IMG/VR virus record: IMGVR_UViG_3300031227_000343
Coordinates: 1 to 26,853 of that record
Direction: 5' to 3' (one strand)
Length of the DNA: 26,853 nt
Source of the DNA: a virus
Shown here: positions 1,532 through 15,580 of the stretch, piece after piece
Layout: each line of letters begins with the position of its first letter
How positions within the stretch are numbered: the first letter of the stretch is position 1
The notes under the pieces: generated by a model
What the model saw: the letters and a program-made list of their open reading frames with translations, nothing else
Database searches by the model: none
What the model was told of the DNA's origin: nothing
Made by a program: the position numbers and the translations under genes

Positions 1532-2365
1532 ATGGCAACCCATACGATCAATGAAGGTGTTATCGCCACTGCTGGCGGTTCCATCGTGACGGCAACTGAA
1601 GCTTACTTGGAGTTGGGGCTCACATCTCCGACTGCTGTTGAGGTTCGTGTCGTGCTCGCTTCCATACGCAAGGCTGAAGGGGCCGTGAAAAGGTACCTTC
1701 GTTATGATCCGGTGCAACGCAGGCGGACAGAGTATTTGCCATTGGGTGATCTGAATGCTGGGCGGTCTGCGGCTATCTGGGAGGTCAACGACACTCAGGC
1801 ATACATGAGGGAGTCGGTTGGATCGGCTGGAGGTGAGATCATTCTTCGGCACATTCCAGTACGGTCAACTGTTGCGATGGTGGTTCACACTGATTCGGAT
1901 GGTCGTTCGGACACGACTGAGGATGCTTTCACTGAGCAGAAGACTGAAGGCTCTGATTTCTGGCCGAACTACGATGGAAAGGACACGGATGGTTACAAGA
2001 TTTGTCGTGATGGCATAATACGACATGTTGGAGCTTGGCCCAGAACACCCGGTTCGATTCGGATTGCCTACACAGCTGGCTACAGTGTCGATGAGTTTCG
2101 TTCTGTGGACAATTTGGTGGATGCTGCCCCGATATGGGATGCCGCATTGGATGAGTCCATACGTCGAGCGAAGAAGGTGTTTCTCAACATGAAGCAATTT
2201 CATGGGTGGGCGGCTGGCCCGAAGTCGAGTGAAAGTCTTGGTGATTACAGTTACAGCACCGGCTCGACCACTGACATGGCTTTTGGTGGGGCCTGGGATT
2301 TGCTGCCCGAGACGAAGGAGAAGTTGCGAGAGTTTGTCAATTGGGGTTACGAGTTGGGGAGCTGA
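1532..2365 (+). CDS. Head-tail connector (HK97 gp6-like adaptor)
   Basis: A 277-residue protein with AGGAG at 1521-1525 before the ATG. The N-terminal half has the helical pattern of head-tail connector proteins that dock on the portal: TEAYLELGLTSPTAVEVRVV, then IRKAEGAVKRYLRYDP, which is typical of gp6/phiE125 gp8-like adaptors. It is longer than the usual 100-200 residues, with an inserted beta-rich middle (SDGRSDTTEDAFTEQKTEGSDF) and the common IRIAYTAGY motif near residue 180. The C-terminal helix ends in REFVNWGYELGS. The next gene encodes a head-closure domain and starts 3 bases after this stop, which supports a neck role. It is odd that these neck genes lie upstream of the portal rather than after the capsid gene. 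Confidence 0.7.
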   Translation: MATHTINEGVIATAGGSIVTATEAYLELGLTSPTAVEVRVVLASIRKAEGAVKRYLRYDPVQRRRTEYLPLGDLNAGRSAAIWEVNDTQAYMRESVGSAGGEIILRHIPVRSTVAMVVHTDSDGRSDTTEDAFTEQKTEGSDFWPNYDGKDTDGYKICRDGIIRHVGAWPRTPGSIRIAYTAGYSVDEFRSVDNLVDAAPIWDAALDESIRRAKKVFLNMKQFHGWAAGPKSSESLGDYSYSTGSTTDMAFGGAWDLLPETKEKLREFVNWGYELGS

Positions 2366-2367
2366 TC

Positions 2368-5300
2368 GTGTCACTTTTAGATAATATGCCGCACAAATGT
2401 TCTGCTTATCGGCGGGTTCGCACGACAGACGACCTCGGCGGGGCCAAGGATGCCTACTCATTCCTCACGTTTTCGGATCGGGATTGTTGGTTGCAGTCGG
2501 CCAGCGATAACGAGGTCCGTATTTTCCAGAAGCAGGGAATCGACGTAACCGGGAAGGTTTTCTTCACATCGGACCCGGAGTTGGACACTCGACACGCTGT
2601 AACAGTAAACAACAAAGCTGATGGAAATTCTCTTGGAACATGGTTGGTGAAGAGCCGGCCGTTGCCGGATACAAGCGTTGGGTTGGCCGTGCTCTACAAA
2701 GTGATGGTGGAGGAGTCCACAACGGGCAGCACTCCCGATTCGATATTGGGTGAGGGCGAAGAAGACATCAGCGATGCTTTGTCCAACGCGGAAAACATTG
2801 CGGCAAACACAGCAGCCATCGAAAGCAATGATGTTGACATAGTTGCGAATAAGGCGAACATTTCGGGCAACGATATTGATATTGCTGCCAACGTGTTGGC
2901 CATAGCAGTTAACGGTTCGGGCATCGCCACGAATGTCACAGACATTGCCACGAATGTCACAGACATTGCCACCAATACTTCAGGAATTGCCACCAACGTA
3001 ACTGGTATTTCAGACAATGTAACTGATATAGCGGCCCATGTTGCTAATCAGACGGCGGCGTTTGTCAACGTGCTTGACGGCGATGTCACCGGGGACGGGA
3101 GCACGGACGACAAGGCGGCTATTGAGGCTCGTATGGCCATTGCGTTGGCGTCGGGTGCGGCACTGTTGTTTCCGTCAGGCAGCTACAAGATTGAGAGCGA
3201 CTTGACGTTTACGGTGCCGTGCATTTTTATGGGCGGTGTATTGAAACCCGACGTTGGCATTATCGTGATGTTCAACAAGCCGATGGACAATCCGTTGGGC
3301 AGCCAATGTTTCGATGTAGCATACACCAGGGGACTTGGGGCCGCGTCATCCATAGCAGACGGAGATGATCCTGTTGCCTTACCTGGGGTCAGGTTCGCAA
3401 GCTCCAGCAATCAACCGCTTATTAGACCGCAATGGTGGGGAGCGCTTGCCGGTGAGGTTGTAGACTGTGGCGATGCTTTCCAGCAGGCGATTGATTCCGT
3501 GACCTGGTTGGGCTCGAACAGTTATGCTGCCATACCTGTTATGATTCCAGGTGGCAGATACAACGCATCGCATGAGTTGTTCGATGGTTACGATTTCGTC
3601 AACCACGACAGCACGGATGATCATTTGTGCAGGCGGGACAAAACTGTAGTCGATACTCCCGGTGTGCGAGCATCACCTGTTCCACTCATAGGTGAAGATG
3701 GTGGTATCTATATAAAATACACGGGCACCGCACACACCAATCAGTCGGCGAAGTATTTTGTATACTATAGCCCAGCCAGTGAAGGTGCCCCAGAGGTTCG
3801 ATTATCTGGGATTTTCTTGAACTGTGACTACGAACGTCGTGGATTCTATTTTGCAGCTCTTGGTCGAACTAAATCGTTTTCTGATTTAATTGTTCTGAAA
3901 TCCATTCAAGTAGCGTTTGACATTATATCGTGTTACACATGTGACATGAAGAGCTTGAATTGTAGCAACACACGGGGAATAGGCATCCGCACGTATGGGG
4001 CCAACGGCAGCAGGATAAACAACTGCCAGTATTCGACCAACTACAAGGTGGGTGTTTTCGGCGACTATTGGCCCGACCCAGACGAGACGCACATCGTCAC
4101 CGCCAACGGATCTATCGTCCAAACTTCCGTAGACCAGCGAGCGGGTTTTGTTCTTGATGGAACGATTATGGGCGACACTCTCAATGTGGAGGGCGCATAC
4201 CTAAGTTGGCCAATTGTTATAAGTGGCGGCACCAAGGTGGGTACCCAGCTCAAGTGCAGTGTGATAGACCATGAGTTCCAGACAGGCAACAAGTTTTACT
4301 TTGACGGGGCGATACGCGACCTGGTTGAGATTAACGATGATGATTTTTACTTGGATTACGACCCGGGAACCACGACTTCTGGCTTTCTGTACCGTGCTTG
4401 CGAAAGCATAACACAGAATGCTACTCTTGGCGTGGTGACACTAACAAACCACCGGTTCGCAGAAGGCGACCGCATAAAGTTCAACACCACCACGGGCATG
4501 GCTGAGCTTAACAACAACTGGTATCGAGTAGGTCCGCCGACAGTCGGCGGAGCAATGGCAACCGACACGTTCGGCATCTATGAGTTCCATACCGACTTTG
4601 CCAACAGCGGTGCCTTGGTTCCTGTAGCAACAGATGGATTCGCGGTGAGCGATGCCACAGAATACATTTCGGGCAGTGGCGGAAATGGCTTTTACCTAGG
4701 CGGAACAACTTGTCAATACACTAACTTGCGGTTCGAGACCAACGTCATAGCATTTTCGTACATAGTAGTTGGGGCTGAATCACGAAACATTACAGTAGAT
4801 GGGATTTACCAGTCAACATCGTTGCAACCGCGAACGATTGTCTACTGTGACCGTGGACCCGTGACTGGAGCTGTTTCTGGCTACACCCATACGGGTCATC
4901 GTTTTAGAAACATCAGAGCGAACTCTCGTTTGTATACTCCAACTGCCACTGCTGCTTCGCGGGCTCTTGTTGAGTTTGACATCACACCTGGATACCGAGC
5001 CGATGGGAACACGGTTGATAGCGTAATAGATAATAGTGAACACTCATTTGGAACTCCTGCAATTCCGAAAGTGCTGTTCACGGAGCCGTCAAGCTATGCT
5101 ACATCGTTTGCCGCCGGAAGCCCAACAGGCGGCTATCAGGTTTGCAACTACGTGGACGGCATAGGAACGTCCATTGAGCGATGGGAGCCTGACAACGCTA
5201 CGCCTCCCGTGTATGGGCATCACGTCGGCGGCGATGTGATTGTGCTAAAGATACCCTGGACGAAGTTCCGAATCGACGACCACACAGTAGACATCACGAA

Positions 5301-5484
5301 TTTCGACGACGGGTACGAGGGGCAAGAGATCACGGTGTTTGTGGGTGCCAATACAGTTGCCGGCGGCAAAGACATTATCCATGATGTTACCAAGATTGTA
5401 CTCACCAGCGGTGCAGATATTACACCGTCTGCTGGCGACTTGTTGCGATTCCAGCTTGTCGGCACGGTTTGGTATCAGATGTAA
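2368..5484 (+). CDS. Fusion: head-closure-like domain + coiled stalk + pectate-lyase-like spike
   Basis: I place the start at GTG 2368, three bases after the connector stop, because GGGGAG lies just upstream; the product is 1038 residues. Residues 1-115 resemble head-closure/head-tail joining proteins (PF05521 type): MPHKCSAYRRVRTTDDLGG, then FQKQGIDVTGKVFF, then a WLVKSRPLPD strand, ending at VMVEES. A short acidic linker follows, then about 12 heptads of the form I-x-x-N-x-x-x (about residues 143-226), a trimeric stalk. From about residue 230 comes VNVLDGDVTGDGSTDDKAAI and LLFPSGSYKI, the classical start of the Pectate_lyase_3 spike fold, followed by a long beta-helix to about residue 950. 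The C-terminal strands (VIVLKIPW...LRFQLVGTVWYQM) look like a capping domain. Such spikes bind or cleave surface polysaccharides; joining one to a head-closure domain would place it at the neck. The frame is continuous through the junction. Confidence 0.75.
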   Translation: MSLLDNMPHKCSAYRRVRTTDDLGGAKDAYSFLTFSDRDCWLQSASDNEVRIFQKQGIDVTGKVFFTSDPELDTRHAVTVNNKADGNSLGTWLVKSRPLPDTSVGLAVLYKVMVEESTTGSTPDSILGEGEEDISDALSNAENIAANTAAIESNDVDIVANKANISGNDIDIAANVLAIAVNGSGIATNVTDIATNVTDIATNTSGIATNVTGISDNVTDIAAHVANQTAAFVNVLDGDVTGDGSTDDKAAIEARMAIALASGAALLFPSGSYKIESDLTFTVPCIFMGGVLKPDVGIIVMFNKPMDNPLGSQCFDVAYTRGLGAASSIADGDDPVALPGVRFASSSNQPLIRPQWWGALAGEVVDCGDAFQQAIDSVTWLGSNSYAAIPVMIPGGRYNASHELFDGYDFVNHDSTDDHLCRRDKTVVDTPGVRASPVPLIGEDGGIYIKYTGTAHTNQSAKYFVYYSPASEGAPEVRLSGIFLNCDYERRGFYFAALGRTKSFSDLIVLKSIQVAFDIISCYTCDMKSLNCSNTRGIGIRTYGANGSRINNCQYSTNYKVGVFGDYWPDPDETHIVTANGSIVQTSVDQRAGFVLDGTIMGDTLNVEGAYLSWPIVISGGTKVGTQLKCSVIDHEFQTGNKFYFDGAIRDLVEINDDDFYLDYDPGTTTSGFLYRACESITQNATLGVVTLTNHRFAEGDRIKFNTTTGMAELNNNWYRVGPPTVGGAMATDTFGIYEFHTDFANSGALVPVATDGFAVSDATEYISGSGGNGFYLGGTTCQYTNLRFETNVIAFSYIVVGAESRNITVDGIYQSTSLQPRTIVYCDRGPVTGAVSGYTHTGHRFRNIRANSRLYTPTATAASRALVEFDITPGYRADGNTVDSVIDNSEHSFGTPAIPKVLFTEPSSYATSFAAGSPTGGYQVCNYVDGIGTSIERWEPDNATPPVYGHHVGGDVIVLKIPWTKFRIDDHTVDITNFDDGYEGQEITVFVGANTVAGGKDIIHDVTKIVLTSGADITPSAGDLLRFQLVGTVWYQM
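2920..3045 (+). repeat. 21-bp tandem repeat encoding heptads of the spike stalk
   Basis: Six consecutive 21-base units encode IATNVTD, IATNVTD, IATNTSG, IATNVTG, ISDNVTD and IAAHVAN. Units 2920-2940 and 2941-2961 are nearly identical at the DNA level. Degenerate units of the same heptad extend upstream to about 2794. Ile at position a and Asn at position d is the N@d pattern known from trimeric coiled coils of adhesins and phage fibres. Such repeats can change length by slippage. Confidence 0.8.
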
Positions 5485-9087: not shown

Positions 9088-9265
9088 ACCAACCCCTGAA
9101 GAGATCAGGAAGGCCACGGCCGAGATCAGGCGGGGGTGGAGTGTTTCCAAGAAAGTGTTTCGAAACCAATTGCCAAAAGAAACACCTTACAAGACGCCTG
9201 TCTACAGTGTAACAATGGTTCGTGATTTTCTTGACGACACGCCTGTTTTCACAAGGATCAATTGA
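9065..9265 (+). CDS. Small protein inserted between two halves of the minor head gene
   Basis: The start ATG 9065 follows TAAGGAG (9051-9057) and gives 66 residues. It overlaps the previous frame by 23 bases and the next by one base (TGATG). The sequence is basic and helical at first (PEEIRKATAEIRRGWSVSKKVFRNQ), then extended (TPVYSVTMVRDFLDD). It resembles small DNA-binding or regulatory proteins in composition, but no family is recognised. Its position between two parts of what is normally one protein makes it a candidate insertion. Confidence 0.6.
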   Translation: MPRKVDYEPTPEEIRKATAEIRRGWSVSKKVFRNQLPKETPYKTPVYSVTMVRDFLDDTPVFTRIN

Positions 9266-10935
9266 TGCCGACAACGGCTACAGAATGGTTGAATGACCAT
9301 CCGGGTGATGTTGAAAGCCTTGTTCAACTTTTGGTTGATTCGGGTACAGACATCGAACTGCTGACTGATCTCCCTCCATCGATGCAAAAAGAGATCGCGT
9401 CTCAACTTGCCGACACATTTCAACAGGATTACTGGCTTGATATTCACAACACCACGATGGGCGATGCAACGACGTCTCTGCAGAAAGGCCTGAACGACGG
9501 TTGGTCGATTAGAAAAATAGCTGAATCGATGAGGGACAATTTCATCGATCCAAACGACCCTGAAGGCACGAAAAAGTATGCAAGACGTCGGTCGATAAAC
9601 ATCGCCAGGACTGAAGCCGGCCATGCGTTGAACGGTGCCCGCAAGGCATCCATGAATACACTGATGGAGGAAATGGGCGGGCAGGTGCCGATGAGGCCGT
9701 CTTGGCTGAGTGTGCTCGGTGCAACGACCAGAGATACCCATGCGGCTCTTGACGGGGTACCTGCCGATGAGAATGGGTTGTGGGACTTGGCTGGGTATAT
9801 GGTACCGTGGCCGGGCTACACCAGCTTGCCAGCGGAGCTTCGTTGCAACTGCCAATGCCAGCCTGGGTTTGCGAAGGTTTCACCGATCGGGAAGCTAGTC
9901 GCAATCAGTCGAATGTTCTACAGTGGCCCCCTTGTAGAACTTGTAACGAAGTCGGGCAGCAGGATTTACTTCACCCCAAACCACCCCGTATTGACCTCGG
10001 AGGGTTGGGTCGGAGCAAGCCAAGTGAAGGCAGGAATGCACCTTTTCCAAGATGCTACTGGTGTTTCTCTTGGTGAAGACGAAAAGTACGAACCAATCAG
10101 TATCGAGGATATGTTTCAATCGTGCTGTGCCTCCATGGGTTGTGTTGAAAGTCGAAGACGATTTCCTTTCCAATTCCACGGCGATGCGAAGCATGGGCAA
10201 GGCAAAATCGACACTATACTTGTCGATGTAGAATTGGCGAACCCATCCGTTGCAGAAGGATTCCAAAATGGGAAGGAACTTGACTTCGTGTTTGCTGCAA
10301 GCGAGTTGGGCGTTTCTCAGGCAAGCAGCAGTGTTGCCGGGACTGGCGTTTTCCCATCGGATGAGTTGGGCAGTAGAATTGGTTCGCAGCAAACCATGAC
10401 GTTTAAGGCATCTGTGGATGACAGGTCTGGAGACCCCGTGAGTGTTAGCGATTTCGACTTGGCCTTTTCCGGACAAGTAAGCAGACAAGATCGCAGTTTC
10501 ATTCAACGAGATGCGTTTTTTGCCGGGTTTGCCACGGAGGTAACACCCCGTAGACCGAATGTTGATTCCAAGTCGTTTCAATCGGACAAGGATAGAATGG
10601 GGATCACACCCATAGATTTTGGCGATGGCTGTGGCAGATCTCTGTTCGTTGACATACAACCGGATGAGGTCATTGGGGTCGGGCTCGATCTTGATTTTTC
10701 TGGACATGTTTACGATATCCAAACTGAGTCAGGTGTTTATTGGTCTCAATCTATTATAGCACACAATTGCACGATCAGCATGGAGTTGGGCATGCAACAA
10801 GAGGATGCTCAACGACTTATCAATGAGTATGGTACATTCCGAGAGGAATACGGGTTGGCCAAGGGACTCAGTCCTTGCGGTTGTGAAGTGAAACACCTTC
10901 CCGGCCAACACAATCAACAGGAAGAAGAACAATGA
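9265..10935 (+). CDS. Minor head protein (Mu gpF-like) interrupted by an intein
   Basis: ATG 9265 follows AAGGA (9253-9257) at good spacing; a TTG three bases earlier is also possible. The precursor is 556 residues. N-extein: residues 1-197 with NIARTEAGHALNGARKA (from about 112), then SWLSVLGATTRDTHAALDGV and LPAELRCNCQ. This is the Mu gpF/head morphogenesis signature: an RTE helix, a W...D...H core and a terminal C-x-C. The intein follows (304 residues), then a C-extein of 55 residues starting CTISMELG. The predicted spliced protein is 252 residues with the C-x-C motif restored as NCQCTI. The gpF family sits on the inside of the portal vertex and helps head assembly or DNA ejection. Without splicing the motif would be disrupted, so splicing is presumably needed. 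A second gene is encoded on the opposite strand of the intein segment. Confidence 0.85.
   Translation: MPTTATEWLNDHPGDVESLVQLLVDSGTDIELLTDLPPSMQKEIASQLADTFQQDYWLDIHNTTMGDATTSLQKGLNDGWSIRKIAESMRDNFIDPNDPEGTKKYARRRSINIARTEAGHALNGARKASMNTLMEEMGGQVPMRPSWLSVLGATTRDTHAALDGVPADENGLWDLAGYMVPWPGYTSLPAELRCNCQCQPGFAKVSPIGKLVAISRMFYSGPLVELVTKSGSRIYFTPNHPVLTSEGWVGASQVKAGMHLFQDATGVSLGEDEKYEPISIEDMFQSCCASMGCVESRRRFPFQFHGDAKHGQGKIDTILVDVELANPSVAEGFQNGKELDFVFAASELGVSQASSSVAGTGVFPSDELGSRIGSQQTMTFKASVDDRSGDPVSVSDFDLAFSGQVSRQDRSFIQRDAFFAGFATEVTPRRPNVDSKSFQSDKDRMGITPIDFGDGCGRSLFVDIQPDEVIGVGLDLDFSGHVYDIQTESGVYWSQSIIAHNCTISMELGMQQEDAQRLINEYGTFREEYGLAKGLSPCGCEVKHLPGQHNQQEEEQ
9895..10707 (-). CDS. Antisense Vsr/DUF559-like homing endonuclease with two HTH repeats, nested in the intein
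   Basis: Reading leftward from ATG 10707 (a TTG at 10722 is the alternative) to TAG at 9895, this gives 270 residues, in exact codon-opposite-codon register with the intein. Residues 13-51 (DLIRLYVNEQRSATAIAKIYG, then LVRLKRLGINIR) and 70-108 (ILSAYLSGKGQVEIANTHGV, then IHRCLKRHGLLR) are two mutually similar helix-turn-helix units sharing Y, IA, G, I and LKR-x-G. Residues 140-245 look like a Vsr/DUF559 PD-(D/E)XK-type nuclease: FYIDKYSVDFALPMLRIAVELE with D167 and E178, then H191, LKHILDTDWFVLFVF and RGQYGVVWGE. Such shared patterns would not be expected from a random shadow frame. Related Vsr-like proteins are known as homing endonucleases of phage split inteins. I infer that this one mobilises the intein. 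The His that usually follows the core appears replaced by Ser/Thr, so activity is uncertain. Confidence 0.75.
   Translation of the reverse strand: MSRKIKIEPDPNDLIRLYVNEQRSATAIAKIYGCDPHSILVRLKRLGINIRSTGCYLRGKPGKKRISLNETAILSAYLSGKGQVEIANTHGVSRPVIHRCLKRHGLLRTNSTAQLIRWENASPGNTAACLRNAQLACSKHEVKFLPILESFCNGWVRQFYIDKYSVDFALPMLRIAVELERKSSSTFNTTHGGTARLKHILDTDWFVLFVFTKRNTSSILEKVHSCLHLACSDPTLRGQYGVVWGEVNPAARLRYKFYKGATVEHSTDCD
10753..10761 (-). promoter_or_regulatory. Candidate extended -10 promoter for the antisense endonuclease
   Basis: On the reverse strand this reads TGCTATAAT, an exact TGn-TATAAT extended -10. It lies about 46 bases upstream of ATG 10707, so a transcript would start near 10746 with a leader of about 39 bases. 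The -35 region is poor (ATGCTG or TGCTGA), which extended -10 promoters tolerate. No strong Shine-Dalgarno is seen before the ATG. On the sense strand the same bases encode Ile-Ile-Ala of the intein C-terminal splice block. Confidence 0.4.
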
Positions 10936-12400: not shown

Positions 12401-12444
12401 ATCCTGCCGGATTTATGTTCACAGTTTTTTTTTGGAGAGTAGCA

Positions 12445-13161
12445 ATGAAAAACGTAGTTTTTTGGCTCGGGCCTGCTGTTGGTCTTGCGAGCCGTTCGTT
12501 GATCATCACAAGAATGTATCGGGCGGGTGATGACTCCGCACCGGCTGCATTCTATTCAGGTTCTTTAGGAGCTGCCATCGAATCGGTGACAGTTCCTTTG
12601 ACAGACAACGTAATTTGGCAAGCTGTCCTGATAGACACAAGAGCATCCGGAGAAGTCAGTGAACCAGATGTCTTGAACTTCCACACGGGCTCATTGCAGT
12701 TTCCAGGCCCAGCTTCGGATCATGTTAATCGGCTGCAGATCCTTTCGATGGAGGATTTGTCAAGCTCTTCGAGCACAAGTTCGTCGAGTCAAAGTTCTTC
12801 GAGTTCGTCGAGTCAAAGTTCTTCGAGTGCTTCCAGTGTTTCGAGTGTTTCGAGCACAAGCTCGTCGAGTCAAAGTTCTTCAAGTTCTTCAAGTGCTTCG
12901 AGTGCTTCGAGTGCTAGCTCTTCGAGTGCTTCGAGTGCAAGTTCTTCGAGTGCTTCGAGTGTTTCGAGTTCTTCGAGTTCTTCGAGTATCTCGACAAGCT
13001 CTTCGAGTGAGAGCTCTTCGAGCCAGAGCACTTCGAGTGCTTCCAGTTCGTCCTGGTCAAGTTGGAGTGAAACATCTGACAGCTCTTCGGCGAGTTCCGA
13101 TAGTTCCAGTTCTTTGAGCACTTCGAGTGCTTCGAGTTCGTCCTGGTCCAGTCAGACTTAA
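12445..13161 (+). CDS. Serine-tailed phage structural protein
   Basis: ATG 12445 has GGAGAG just upstream and gives 238 residues. The first 105 form a globular domain (MKNVVFWLGPAVGLASRS, then VPLTDNVIWQAVLIDTRASGEVSEPDVLNFHTGSLQFPGP). The remaining 130 residues are almost pure serine with scattered Gln, Ala, Val, Thr, Trp and Glu. Two further proteins in this window carry similar tails, so the tail appears to be a shared module of virion proteins. No family name is certain. A surface-exposed, flexible or modified tail is inference. Its own promoter and leader suggest strong expression. Confidence 0.65.
   Translation: MKNVVFWLGPAVGLASRSLIITRMYRAGDDSAPAAFYSGSLGAAIESVTVPLTDNVIWQAVLIDTRASGEVSEPDVLNFHTGSLQFPGPASDHVNRLQILSMEDLSSSSSTSSSSQSSSSSSSQSSSSASSVSSVSSTSSSSQSSSSSSSASSASSASSSSASSASSSSASSVSSSSSSSSISTSSSSESSSSQSTSSASSSSWSSWSETSDSSSASSDSSSSLSTSSASSSSWSSQT
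12757..13155 (+). repeat. Degenerate TCGAGT-type repeat encoding the serine tail
   Basis: Low-complexity DNA built from TCGAGT, TTCGAG and related hexamers. It mixes the TCN and AGY serine codon families. Such a tract is prone to length change and creates long shadow frames on both strands (Leu/Glu-rich on the reverse, Arg/Val-rich on the forward) that I do not regard as genes. Confidence 0.85.
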
Positions 13162-13573: not shown

Positions 13574-15580
13574 TTGCCACTTCCGAAACCCAAACCGAAC
13601 GAGAGTGAAGACGATTTTATATCACGGTGTGTCCCGATCGTTATGGAGGAATCAGATGATCGGAAACAGGCCGTTGCTACTTGTTATTCACAGTTCAAAG
13701 GAAAAGCAATGACTCCTAACGATACACTTCTCGCTGCTATTCGGTCCCGTGGCCAAAAGCAGACCGAGTTTGGTTATGGCATCCGGACGGCTGATGTTTT
13801 CGTGAGGACGTTAGCCGAACGCATTGGCATCGACAGTTGTTACAAATACGCGGCGAGTAGAACGACCAGTTTCGATGACATACTCCAGAAGGCTGGCCGG
13901 ACGTTGGTCTACTCCAACTCTGATATGGTTATCGAGGAGAAGGATGTCAATACGATCCGCAAGGACCATGACATTGAGCTTCCGAAAAACACCTTGATGG
14001 TTTTCAAGCATACCTTGACGACATCGGCCAAGGATCGGGACGGAGACGTACTGCATGCAGCAGGGGCAGTTCCGGATCCGAAGATGCTTCTACTCTGGCA
14101 GCATCTTCACACGATGCCGATCGGAAAGGCGATCGCAATCGCTGATCAGAATGATGAACATCTGAAGATGGTTTCGTGCATCGTCGATATGAATGAGACC
14201 AGCCACGACGCCGCTGTCATGGTAGACAATGACATGGGCCGTTTCTCTCACGGGTTCAGGGCCATCGATTTCGAAGAGATCAAAGAAGGTGATAAGAAGA
14301 GACCATCGGGGGCTTTTGACATCAAGGAATACGAGATCATGGAAGAGTCACTCGTCAGTGTTCCGGCCAATGTTGATGCGACAACCGAGGAAGTGATGCT
14401 GTCGTTGGTTGAGGGCGGCAAGTTGACCAGCCCGATGATGAAGGAATATGGGAAGGTGTTGCGGGAGAAGCGGTCGGTTCAGGTGCCAGTCACGTTTCGT
14501 GAAATACAATGCAGTTCATTCGGTGAACTCAAACAGGCTCACGAAGCCGGTTTGATTGCCGGAGTAACCAAGGCCGGAGGGAAGAGCGATGAAACAATCG
14601 ACGACAAAAGAGGAAGAATCAGCGCATCAGAAGAAACCAATGAAGAAGCCACTGACAACGAAGGGCGGAAAGCTGACGGAGAAGAGGAAGGTGCCGACAA
14701 GAAAATGAAGTGCCCCGAATGCGGTGGGGTCATCAAGGACGGCAAGTGTACGAAGTGCGATTACGTTGTGCCCAAGTTGGATGTAGGTAAAAACAATGGG
14801 CCTGGTGGGCATAAACCTGACGGTACTGGGCCTCATGGTGCCGGTGCTGGACCAGGAAGTGGCAGGGCTGATGGTTCTGGTAAAGCTACATTCGGCAAAG
14901 AAGATGACGAAGGGGATGATGAACCCAAGGGCAAGCCCCAGAAGTGCCCCAAATGTGGTTCGACCAAGATCAAGGACGGCAAGTGTGAAGAGTGTGGATA
15001 CGTGTTTCCACAGGATGAGGAAAGCAAAGCCGTGGATCGTGAGGAAAGAGCCAAATTGGATGCCATGTCCACCGGCAAGAATGTCAAGTGTCCGAAGTGT
15101 GGTTACACGGCACCGATGAATTACTGGTCACCGGGCAAAAAAGAGTATCTGTGCCCGGAATGCAAGGCTGACATGTCGAGCAAGTTTCCTGCTGAATGGT
15201 TGAAGAAAGATGATAAGAAGAGTGCCGAGGTGATTTTCAAACACACCAAGCAGGGCCGCACCATTTCCAAGGCCAATGAAGTCAGCCTTCAGGACGCAGT
15301 TGACGACTTGAAGGAAGTTGGCAAGATGGCCATCGCCCGCCCAGCCAAGGCGTTGGTCAAGTCGGCAACATCCACTTTGATCAGTGTGCTGAAGCAGATT
15401 GAGAAGCCGGAGACGAATGAGCAACCACAATCGACACCTATGTCGTTGTTCATAGCCAGTTCCACTCTGGTCGAAAGAAAAACAATGAAACACCTGCTTG
15501 AGGTCTTTGAAAGATCCGAGCAACGAGCGAAAGAAGTGAGGGCCATGCGGCCCTTGTTATCGACACGCCCGGCGCAGTGA
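13574..15580 (+). CDS. Prohead protease (U35/HK97-like) with three zinc ribbons
   Basis: TTG 13574 follows GGGAGG (13563-13568). The 668-residue protein opens with MPLPKPKPNESEDDFISRC and ATCYSQF, a short module I associate with N-termini of phage protease and head proteins. The protease domain spans about residues 135-280: FKHTLTTSAKDRDGDVL, LLWQHLHTMPIG (His177), RFSHGFRAIDF (Ser225) and IMEESLVSVPANVDA. This fits the HK97 prohead protease family, which cleaves scaffold and capsid N-termini during maturation. Unusually, three C-x-x-C ... C-x-x-C zinc-ribbon units follow at about residues 380, 458 and 506, separated by acidic and Gly/Pro-rich linkers. The C-terminus is helical (EVSLQDAVDDLKEVG, LLEVFERSEQRAKEVR) and could act as a scaffold. 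The capsid gene follows 41 bases later. Confidence 0.88.
   Translation: MPLPKPKPNESEDDFISRCVPIVMEESDDRKQAVATCYSQFKGKAMTPNDTLLAAIRSRGQKQTEFGYGIRTADVFVRTLAERIGIDSCYKYAASRTTSFDDILQKAGRTLVYSNSDMVIEEKDVNTIRKDHDIELPKNTLMVFKHTLTTSAKDRDGDVLHAAGAVPDPKMLLLWQHLHTMPIGKAIAIADQNDEHLKMVSCIVDMNETSHDAAVMVDNDMGRFSHGFRAIDFEEIKEGDKKRPSGAFDIKEYEIMEESLVSVPANVDATTEEVMLSLVEGGKLTSPMMKEYGKVLREKRSVQVPVTFREIQCSSFGELKQAHEAGLIAGVTKAGGKSDETIDDKRGRISASEETNEEATDNEGRKADGEEEGADKKMKCPECGGVIKDGKCTKCDYVVPKLDVGKNNGPGGHKPDGTGPHGAGAGPGSGRADGSGKATFGKEDDEGDDEPKGKPQKCPKCGSTKIKDGKCEECGYVFPQDEESKAVDREERAKLDAMSTGKNVKCPKCGYTAPMNYWSPGKKEYLCPECKADMSSKFPAEWLKKDDKKSAEVIFKHTKQGRTISKANEVSLQDAVDDLKEVGKMAIARPAKALVKSATSTLISVLKQIEKPETNEQPQSTPMSLFIASSTLVERKTMKHLLEVFERSEQRAKEVRAMRPLLSTRPAQ

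Follow-up and report, generated by a model that had tools for sequence, protein, structure and literature searches.

The 26.9-kb record of an uncultivated virus analysed here, referred to as the window, raises the question of whether one stretch of phage DNA can code for an intein on one strand and for the homing endonuclease of that intein on the other. On its + strand, the window carries portal, MuF-like head protein, prohead protease, capsid and tape-measure genes, and the ORF of the Mu gpF-like minor head protein (9262-10935, + strand; Pfam Phage_Mu_F, E 2e-6; PHROG head morphogenesis) is split by an intein. The exteins lie at 9265-9855 and 10768-10935 (+ strand), and two intein-free homologues, L111 and L113, align continuously across their junction. 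A first-pass annotation, made from the sequence alone, had proposed that a 270-residue frame antisense to the intein and in exact codon register encodes two helix-turn-helix (HTH) units and a Vsr/DUF559-like nuclease core, so that splicing and homing functions would share one stretch of DNA as a nested selfish element.

In the sense direction, 9856-10767 (+ strand) encodes a complete class 1-like intein of 304 residues within the Mu gpF-like head protein, the splicing activity of which is inferred. It runs from C1 to HN followed by C+1, matches Intein_splicing (E 3e-5) and fulfils the class 1-like criteria with C1, TPNHPVLT, HVYDIQ and IIAHN followed by C; in the family alignment, C1, the T-N-H-P of block B, the HV of block F and N304 are invariant. 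A profile of the sense protein, which comes from the same DNA as the antisense gene, matches the solved KlbA, RadA and RecA inteins (E 8e-11 to 4e-7). The AF2 model of the sense protein contains a confident Hint fold in residues 1-70 and 263-304, and the middle is mostly without confident fold. The N-terminal half of this splicing domain (residues 1-70, 9856-10065, + strand, pLDDT 81-97) includes block B, TPNHPVLT (9973-9996, + strand), whose codons face those of the last nuclease strand, and its DNA doubles as the coding sequence of the antisense C-terminus. The C-terminal half (residues 263-304, 10642-10767, + strand, pLDDT ~90) contains blocks F (HVYDIQ, 10705-10722, + strand) and G (IIAHN), as placed by the alignment. 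Between the two halves, residues 125-262 (10228-10641, + strand) form a spacer that is predicted to be disordered (pLDDT ~33) and that lies opposite the antisense HTH region and the first part of the nuclease. Within the nuclease half (10012-10222), sense residues 80-122 are partly modelled with moderate to good AF2 confidence.

The opposite strand of the intein contains an ORF of 270 amino acids (9895-10707, - strand), which starts with an ATG at 10707 and ends with a TAG stop at 9897-9895, 13 codons inside the intein start. It lies exactly codon over codon with the sense MuF ORF, with an overlap of 813 bp. Given the codon usage of the MuF gene itself, the probability of an open mirror frame in the window is ~0.04, and the length of the frame alone is therefore weak evidence in the window. 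In AT-rich phages, the odds of an open mirror frame are ~1e-9 (Aaphi23) and ~1e-11 (Vibrio H2). A family profile built without the window matched the antisense ORF (E 4.8e-36) as its sole match among the 361 stop-to-stop ORFs of the window, and also matched both HTH copies separately. Four other long antisense ORFs of the window, including a 460-aa mirror of the capsid gene, gave no family match.

By profile and predicted fold, the antisense ORF encodes a nuclease of the Vsr/DUF559 fold preceded by two HTH units; DNA cleavage is inferred. Its AF2 model (mean pLDDT 82) comprises two HTH units of three helices each, followed by a nuclease of alpha/beta type. The first unit (antisense residues 11-45, 10573-10677, - strand, helices at pLDDT ~93-96) matches the HTH families PHROG 8446/7545 (E 2e-6), and the second (residues 70-103, 10399-10500, - strand) matches PHROG 4494 (E 1e-5) and GcrA/resolvase HTH (Z 6.7-5.8). 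The nuclease domain (residues 137-245, 9973-10299, - strand) was assigned by both profile and fold matches. Structural comparison of the model gave Vsr (1cw0, Z 10.6), I-Bth0305I (3r3p, Z 10.1) and NGO0050 (3hrl, Z 9.4). Foldseek alone returned no match below E 0.001 for this model, the matches to Vsr and I-Bth0305I being due to the further structural comparison and to profiles. The antisense family profile matched I-Bth0305I (3r3p, E 2e-5) and NGO0050 (3hrl, E 2e-7) and, weakly, Vsr, with Vsr-type matches ranging from 2e-5 to 4e-4, and Pfam matches among the family members were to Vsr, DUF559 and MTES_1575. As a single sequence, the window protein had no match in the PDB and found no relative among viral contigs, so that alignments were needed to find relatives; one of these, alignment A1, was too divergent to serve as a scan query. 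Free-standing DUF559-like genes on chromosomes were matched by the nuclease half as well; 52 of 398 genomes contained any match, and most of these genes have stops in their mirror frame.

Residues E141, Y164, D167 and R196 are invariant in 41 sequences and E178 is present in 40 of them; the window keeps all five. The E178 codon faces the sense F107 codon, and direct reading of the sequence shows the sense motif FHGD to be the mirror of the antisense motif IAVE (10174-10185, both strands), each being conserved across the family. At the position of a His found in 36 of the 41 relatives the window has a Ser; the alignment is gapped there, and an exact match to the EDxHD column was not established. 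Residue 204 is an Asp in place of Gly.

What the first-pass annotation had observed at the locus was confirmed, and comparison with relatives strengthened it considerably. The intein blocks (N-terminal Cys, TPNHPVLT, VYDIQ, IIAHN then C) in a Mu gpF-like protein were confirmed by the Phage_Mu_F and Intein_splicing matches, the 270-residue frame and its register by the ORF coordinates, and the two HTH units and Vsr/DUF559-like core by HTH families on two separate stretches and by nuclease profile and fold (I-Bth0305I, Vsr, NGO0050/DUF559). Its cautions that frame length is no evidence by itself and that the capsid gene has a longer mirror frame without domain pattern were equally borne out.

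The antisense start codon and Shine-Dalgarno position (10705-10722, - strand) lie in the mirror of block F, where the ATG is the reverse complement of a His codon, CAT. This His is encoded by CAT in 37 cases and by CAC in 2, compared to 63 CAT and 107 CAC in the exteins (p 6e-12). Similarly, the block F Leu is encoded by CTC in 33 of 42 cases, versus 222 of 971 in the exteins (p 2e-13), and CTC yields a Shine-Dalgarno GAG a few bases upstream of the ATG. The Shine-Dalgarno sequence is weak in the window (TTGGATATCGTAAACATG) and GAGG/GGAG-like in most relatives. This codon bias supports translation of the antisense gene, for which there are no RNA or ribosome data, and a search for an antisense promoter in the window found none above chance. 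Since the window lacks the common His and has a weak Shine-Dalgarno sequence, in addition to the Asp for Gly at residue 204, its own antisense copy may be attenuated, and a weakened copy is no more than a possibility.

Across the loci recovered, the arrangement of a sense intein with an antisense nuclease is widespread. A phage search with the antisense protein gave matches antisense to head-protein genes of Gordonia, Aggregatibacter and Salmonella phages. One Gordonia antisense protein matches 127 phage records, the annotated ones listed having the match within genes for head, structural or hypothetical proteins. Scanning IMG/VR with an alignment returned 274 relatives, and 80 of them were retained. 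The sense mirror was unbroken over the match in 64 of 64 antisense-retrieved loci, i.e. 63 of the 80 kept relatives and L021 from a bacterial genome. As the 80 loci had been retrieved by their antisense frame, they were not taken as an unbiased sample of antisense openness, which was checked instead on loci retrieved with the sense protein. All 11 loci fetched in this way (Snoke, BR313c, Vibrio H2, PK2, MSW-3, Fosterous, KMB36, Vibrio 1.197, Idiomarina 1N2-2, Klebsiella RCIP0061 and Vibrio PvVp04) likewise carry such an antisense ORF in mirror register, and the hosts of the sense-retrieved phages include Gordonia, Salmonella, E. coli, Pseudomonas, Vibrio, Klebsiella, Edwardsiella and Idiomarina. 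Intein_splicing was found in 46 and Phage_Mu_F in 37 of 47 sense ORFs, and in the loci examined every full HTH-nuclease protein was encoded opposite an open sense ORF that had intein features. Most annotated records examined omit the antisense ORF, and many phage genomes are therefore probably without an annotated homing endonuclease. The GenBank record of Salmonella phage PK2 (L102:1729-2538) does list the ORF, labelled as a hypothetical protein that overlaps the head gene.

As no close relative of the intein in the window turned up, selection was estimated from other members of the family. Each sense third base pairs with an antisense first base, and each sense first base with an antisense third, so that the two readings can be separated. 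The omega estimates rest on 7 pairs of relatives that are not wholly independent, with kappa assumed to be 3 and only single-difference codons classed. In the exteins, omega was 0.13 for the sense and 1.05 for the antisense reading, the third base was the most variable and antisense-changing substitutions were not depleted. Within the intein, antisense omega was 0.08 in the nuclease half (p 4e-24) and 0.14 in the HTH half (p 5e-29), where sense omega was 0.78 and not significant; at the N-terminal splicing blocks it was 0.13 for the sense and 0.26 for the antisense reading. In these relatives, the antisense reading is thus under strong purifying selection (omega ~0.1, a roughly tenfold depletion of antisense-changing substitutions in the core) inside the intein only and not in the exteins. 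The nuclease half also appears constrained in the sense reading (NN/SN 0.19), the cause of which is not fully explained. In the intein core, the sense first position, which is the antisense wobble position, varies more than the third in every differing pair, and over the same DNA the antisense alignment scores exceed those of the sense in 73 of 91 pairs. Among the sense codons for Leu and Ser, TTA, CTA and TCA, which would be antisense stops, make up 2 of 1,709 where the antisense gene lies opposite, compared to 314 of 2,409 in the exteins. Full dual coding is found in the relatives mainly at the N-terminal splicing blocks, and much of the sense middle is a nearly unconstrained spacer that the model predicts to be disordered.

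Of 40 genes in which codons were counted, only L058 has antisense stops. At this locus (L058:2650-4695) the sense intein frame is intact and the antisense stops include one in the HTH half, which makes it a candidate endonuclease-dead allele; such a pattern is what would be expected of a decayed homing gene. The first-pass annotation had named two findings that would refute it, the lack of any profile or structural match for the antisense protein and antisense frames broken by stops in related intact inteins. With the matches to I-Bth0305I, Vsr and NGO0050/DUF559, unbroken sense mirrors in 64 of 64 loci, an antisense gene in 11 of 11 sense-retrieved loci and stops in L058 alone, neither refutation was judged to have occurred. 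In the overlapping-codon test that it had suggested, strong purifying selection on the antisense reading was limited to the intein.

The presence or absence of an insert at a precise site among close relatives, a criterion for mobile inteins, is fulfilled, and homing itself is inferred from it. The insertion site is precisely empty in the close relatives L111 and L113, whose MuF is 76-77% identical to that of the window. In L110 (L110:4001-5554, MuF 72% identical), a different intein lies two codons upstream of the window's site and also has an antisense endonuclease gene. The MuF DNAs of phages KMB36 (L105:2516-3409) and Snoke (L004:3226-4041) are ~93% identical and contain different inteins at different sites (junctions TSTT then C and HPN then C, respectively), both with an antisense endonuclease. 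The MuF DNA of KMB36 matches 269 phage records, of which only 4 are matched with at least 80% coverage, insert included. The intein-free MuF gene of L111 (L111:3708-4445) has an in-frame stop in its C-extein, which is either a sequencing error or a sign of a broken gene.

The locus is very likely a mobile intein with its homing endonuclease encoded antisense in its own coding sequence, codon facing codon. Both readings, their dual conservation, the selection on the antisense protein, the nuclease family and fold and the presence/absence polymorphism are shown computationally; splicing, antisense expression, cleavage specificity and homing are inferred. According to this model, the sense mRNA would be translated into a MuF head protein precursor, from which the Hint halves (residues 1-70 and 263-304) would splice out the whole insert, including the long spacer. 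The spacer would be mostly the sense translation of the endonuclease gene, for which a stop-free frame suffices. An antisense transcript would start in or beyond the downstream extein and be translated from the ATG and Shine-Dalgarno sequence in the mirror of block F. The resulting two-HTH endonuclease of the Vsr/DUF559 fold would target MuF alleles without the intein and cleave them at the insertion site, whereupon the intein would be copied into the cut allele by repair. In a bolder form, which we hold with similarly high confidence, these loci represent a class of mobile phage elements that is widespread and ancient and that encodes a splicing protein and its homing endonuclease on opposite strands of the same bases in exact register, with the ribosome-binding site and start codon of the endonuclease inside a conserved splicing block; here too, expression, splicing, cleavage and homing are inferred. 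The nested selfish element of the first-pass annotation is thereby supported, with its homing and cleavage inferred, and refined in that full dual coding is found mainly at the N-terminal splicing blocks and that the arrangement is widespread.

Three alternatives were considered. The first concerns the window only and is compatible with the main explanation, namely that its copy is a decaying relic of a once-active antisense homing gene. The Ser in place of the His of 36 of 41 relatives, the weak Shine-Dalgarno sequence and the broken antisense allele beside an intact sense intein in L058 speak for it, whereas the 270-codon frame is intact and E141, Y164, D167, E178 and R196 are retained, and we regard it as unlikely. 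The second is that the antisense gene is real and has another role than homing, e.g. as a nuclease for superinfection exclusion or defence, or as a regulator that binds DNA, and happens to be stored in the intein. DUF559-like nucleases do exist as free-standing chromosomal genes, the HTH and nuclease architecture alone is no proof of homing, and there are no cleavage data. However, the full protein is found only antisense to open, intein-featured sense ORFs in the loci examined, one mobile relative of solved structure, I-Bth0305I, is the homing enzyme of an intron, and the host inteins show the presence/absence and site shifts typical of homing, which makes this alternative very unlikely. The third, that of an ordinary intein with a sense central domain whose antisense frame is a mere mirror, open by codon bias and similar through sense conservation, has in its favour the P of ~0.04 in the window alone, the existence of long domainless mirror ORFs and the somewhat constrained sense reading of the nuclease half, but is all but excluded by the position-specific substitution inverted in the intein only, the open mirrors of AT-rich phages against odds of ~1e-9 to 1e-11, the greater antisense similarity in 73 of 91 pairs and the matches of the antisense nuclease to free-standing genes and solved nucleases while the sense middle is for the most part modelled without confidence. 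We therefore rejected the mirror-image artefact on the codon-class test, the free-standing homologues and the lack of family matches among the control mirror ORFs.

The reading of a mobile intein with an antisense endonuclease was compared to known systems. The antisense protein has the same Vsr-type nuclease fold (Z ~10) as Vsr (1cw0, 1vsr) and I-Bth0305I, an EDxHD homing endonuclease (3r3p). I-Bth0305I, too, belongs to a self-splicing element within a phage gene, in its case a group I intron; the window gene differs in lying antisense within an intein coding sequence and in having N-terminal HTH units. Of the solved structures, DUF559/NGO0050 (3hrl) is closest in sequence to the nuclease core, with which it shares an IGPY-VDF ... 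VE motif, whereas nucleases of this type are mostly short free-standing chromosomal genes, neither nested nor accompanied by two HTH units. Mobile inteins with LAGLIDADG or HNH domains (PI-MtuI, PI-PkoII) likewise have Hint blocks, insertion in a conserved motif and an endonuclease in the same element. In those inteins, the endonuclease forms part of the sense polypeptide, as a domain that splicing releases, whereas in the window it is a protein in its own right, encoded by the other strand. In group I introns whose endonuclease gene is on the complementary strand, and in fractured genes with split inteins, the endonuclease gene is likewise apart from the splicing product. A group I intron need not be translated through the endonuclease gene, as the intron is RNA; in the window, by contrast, the same bases are translated in both directions.

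Protein-coding antisense overlap has been described in bacteria, as for the E. coli genes ano (PMC5960689) and laoB (PMC5810103) and in PMC9927249. Compared to the 186 bp of ano, the overlap in the intein is 813 bp, is conserved across divergent phages and encodes a recognisable fold in either direction. Minor head proteins of phages have been reported to contain inteins (PMC11162368; PMC7468147), and the bearing sections of these two papers do not mention an antisense gene. The first-pass annotation had claimed novelty for the arrangement, and we found no description of an antisense-encoded intein endonuclease in the open-access literature searched; papers on EDxHD enzymes and phage inteins were incompletely covered, so that this absence is not proof.

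The arrangement combines two known kinds of element, mobile inteins and Vsr-fold homing endonucleases, in such a way that the endonuclease is the mirror image of the intein and not its domain, which explains why the middle of the MuF intein looks featureless to annotation. It provides a natural case, in many divergent sequences, of two recognisable folds coded codon over codon, in which the rules of dual coding become testable, and it bears on the debate on sense-antisense coding (Rodin-Ohno, PMC4082485) and on the reported bacterial antisense genes. As the E. coli phages Snoke and KMB36 carry it, it is directly testable.

Three other genes of the window have unusual features. The prohead protease (668 aa, 13574-15580) has a long, unusual-looking C-terminal extension with about three Cys4 zinc-ribbon-like motifs and Pfam DZR and Zn-ribbon matches. 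The C-terminal half of the protein encoded at 12415-13161 consists almost entirely of Ser-rich low-complexity sequence. Upstream of the portal gene, 2341-5484 encodes a pectate-lyase/rhamnogalacturonase-like protein of 1047 aa, which might be a tailspike or depolymerase.
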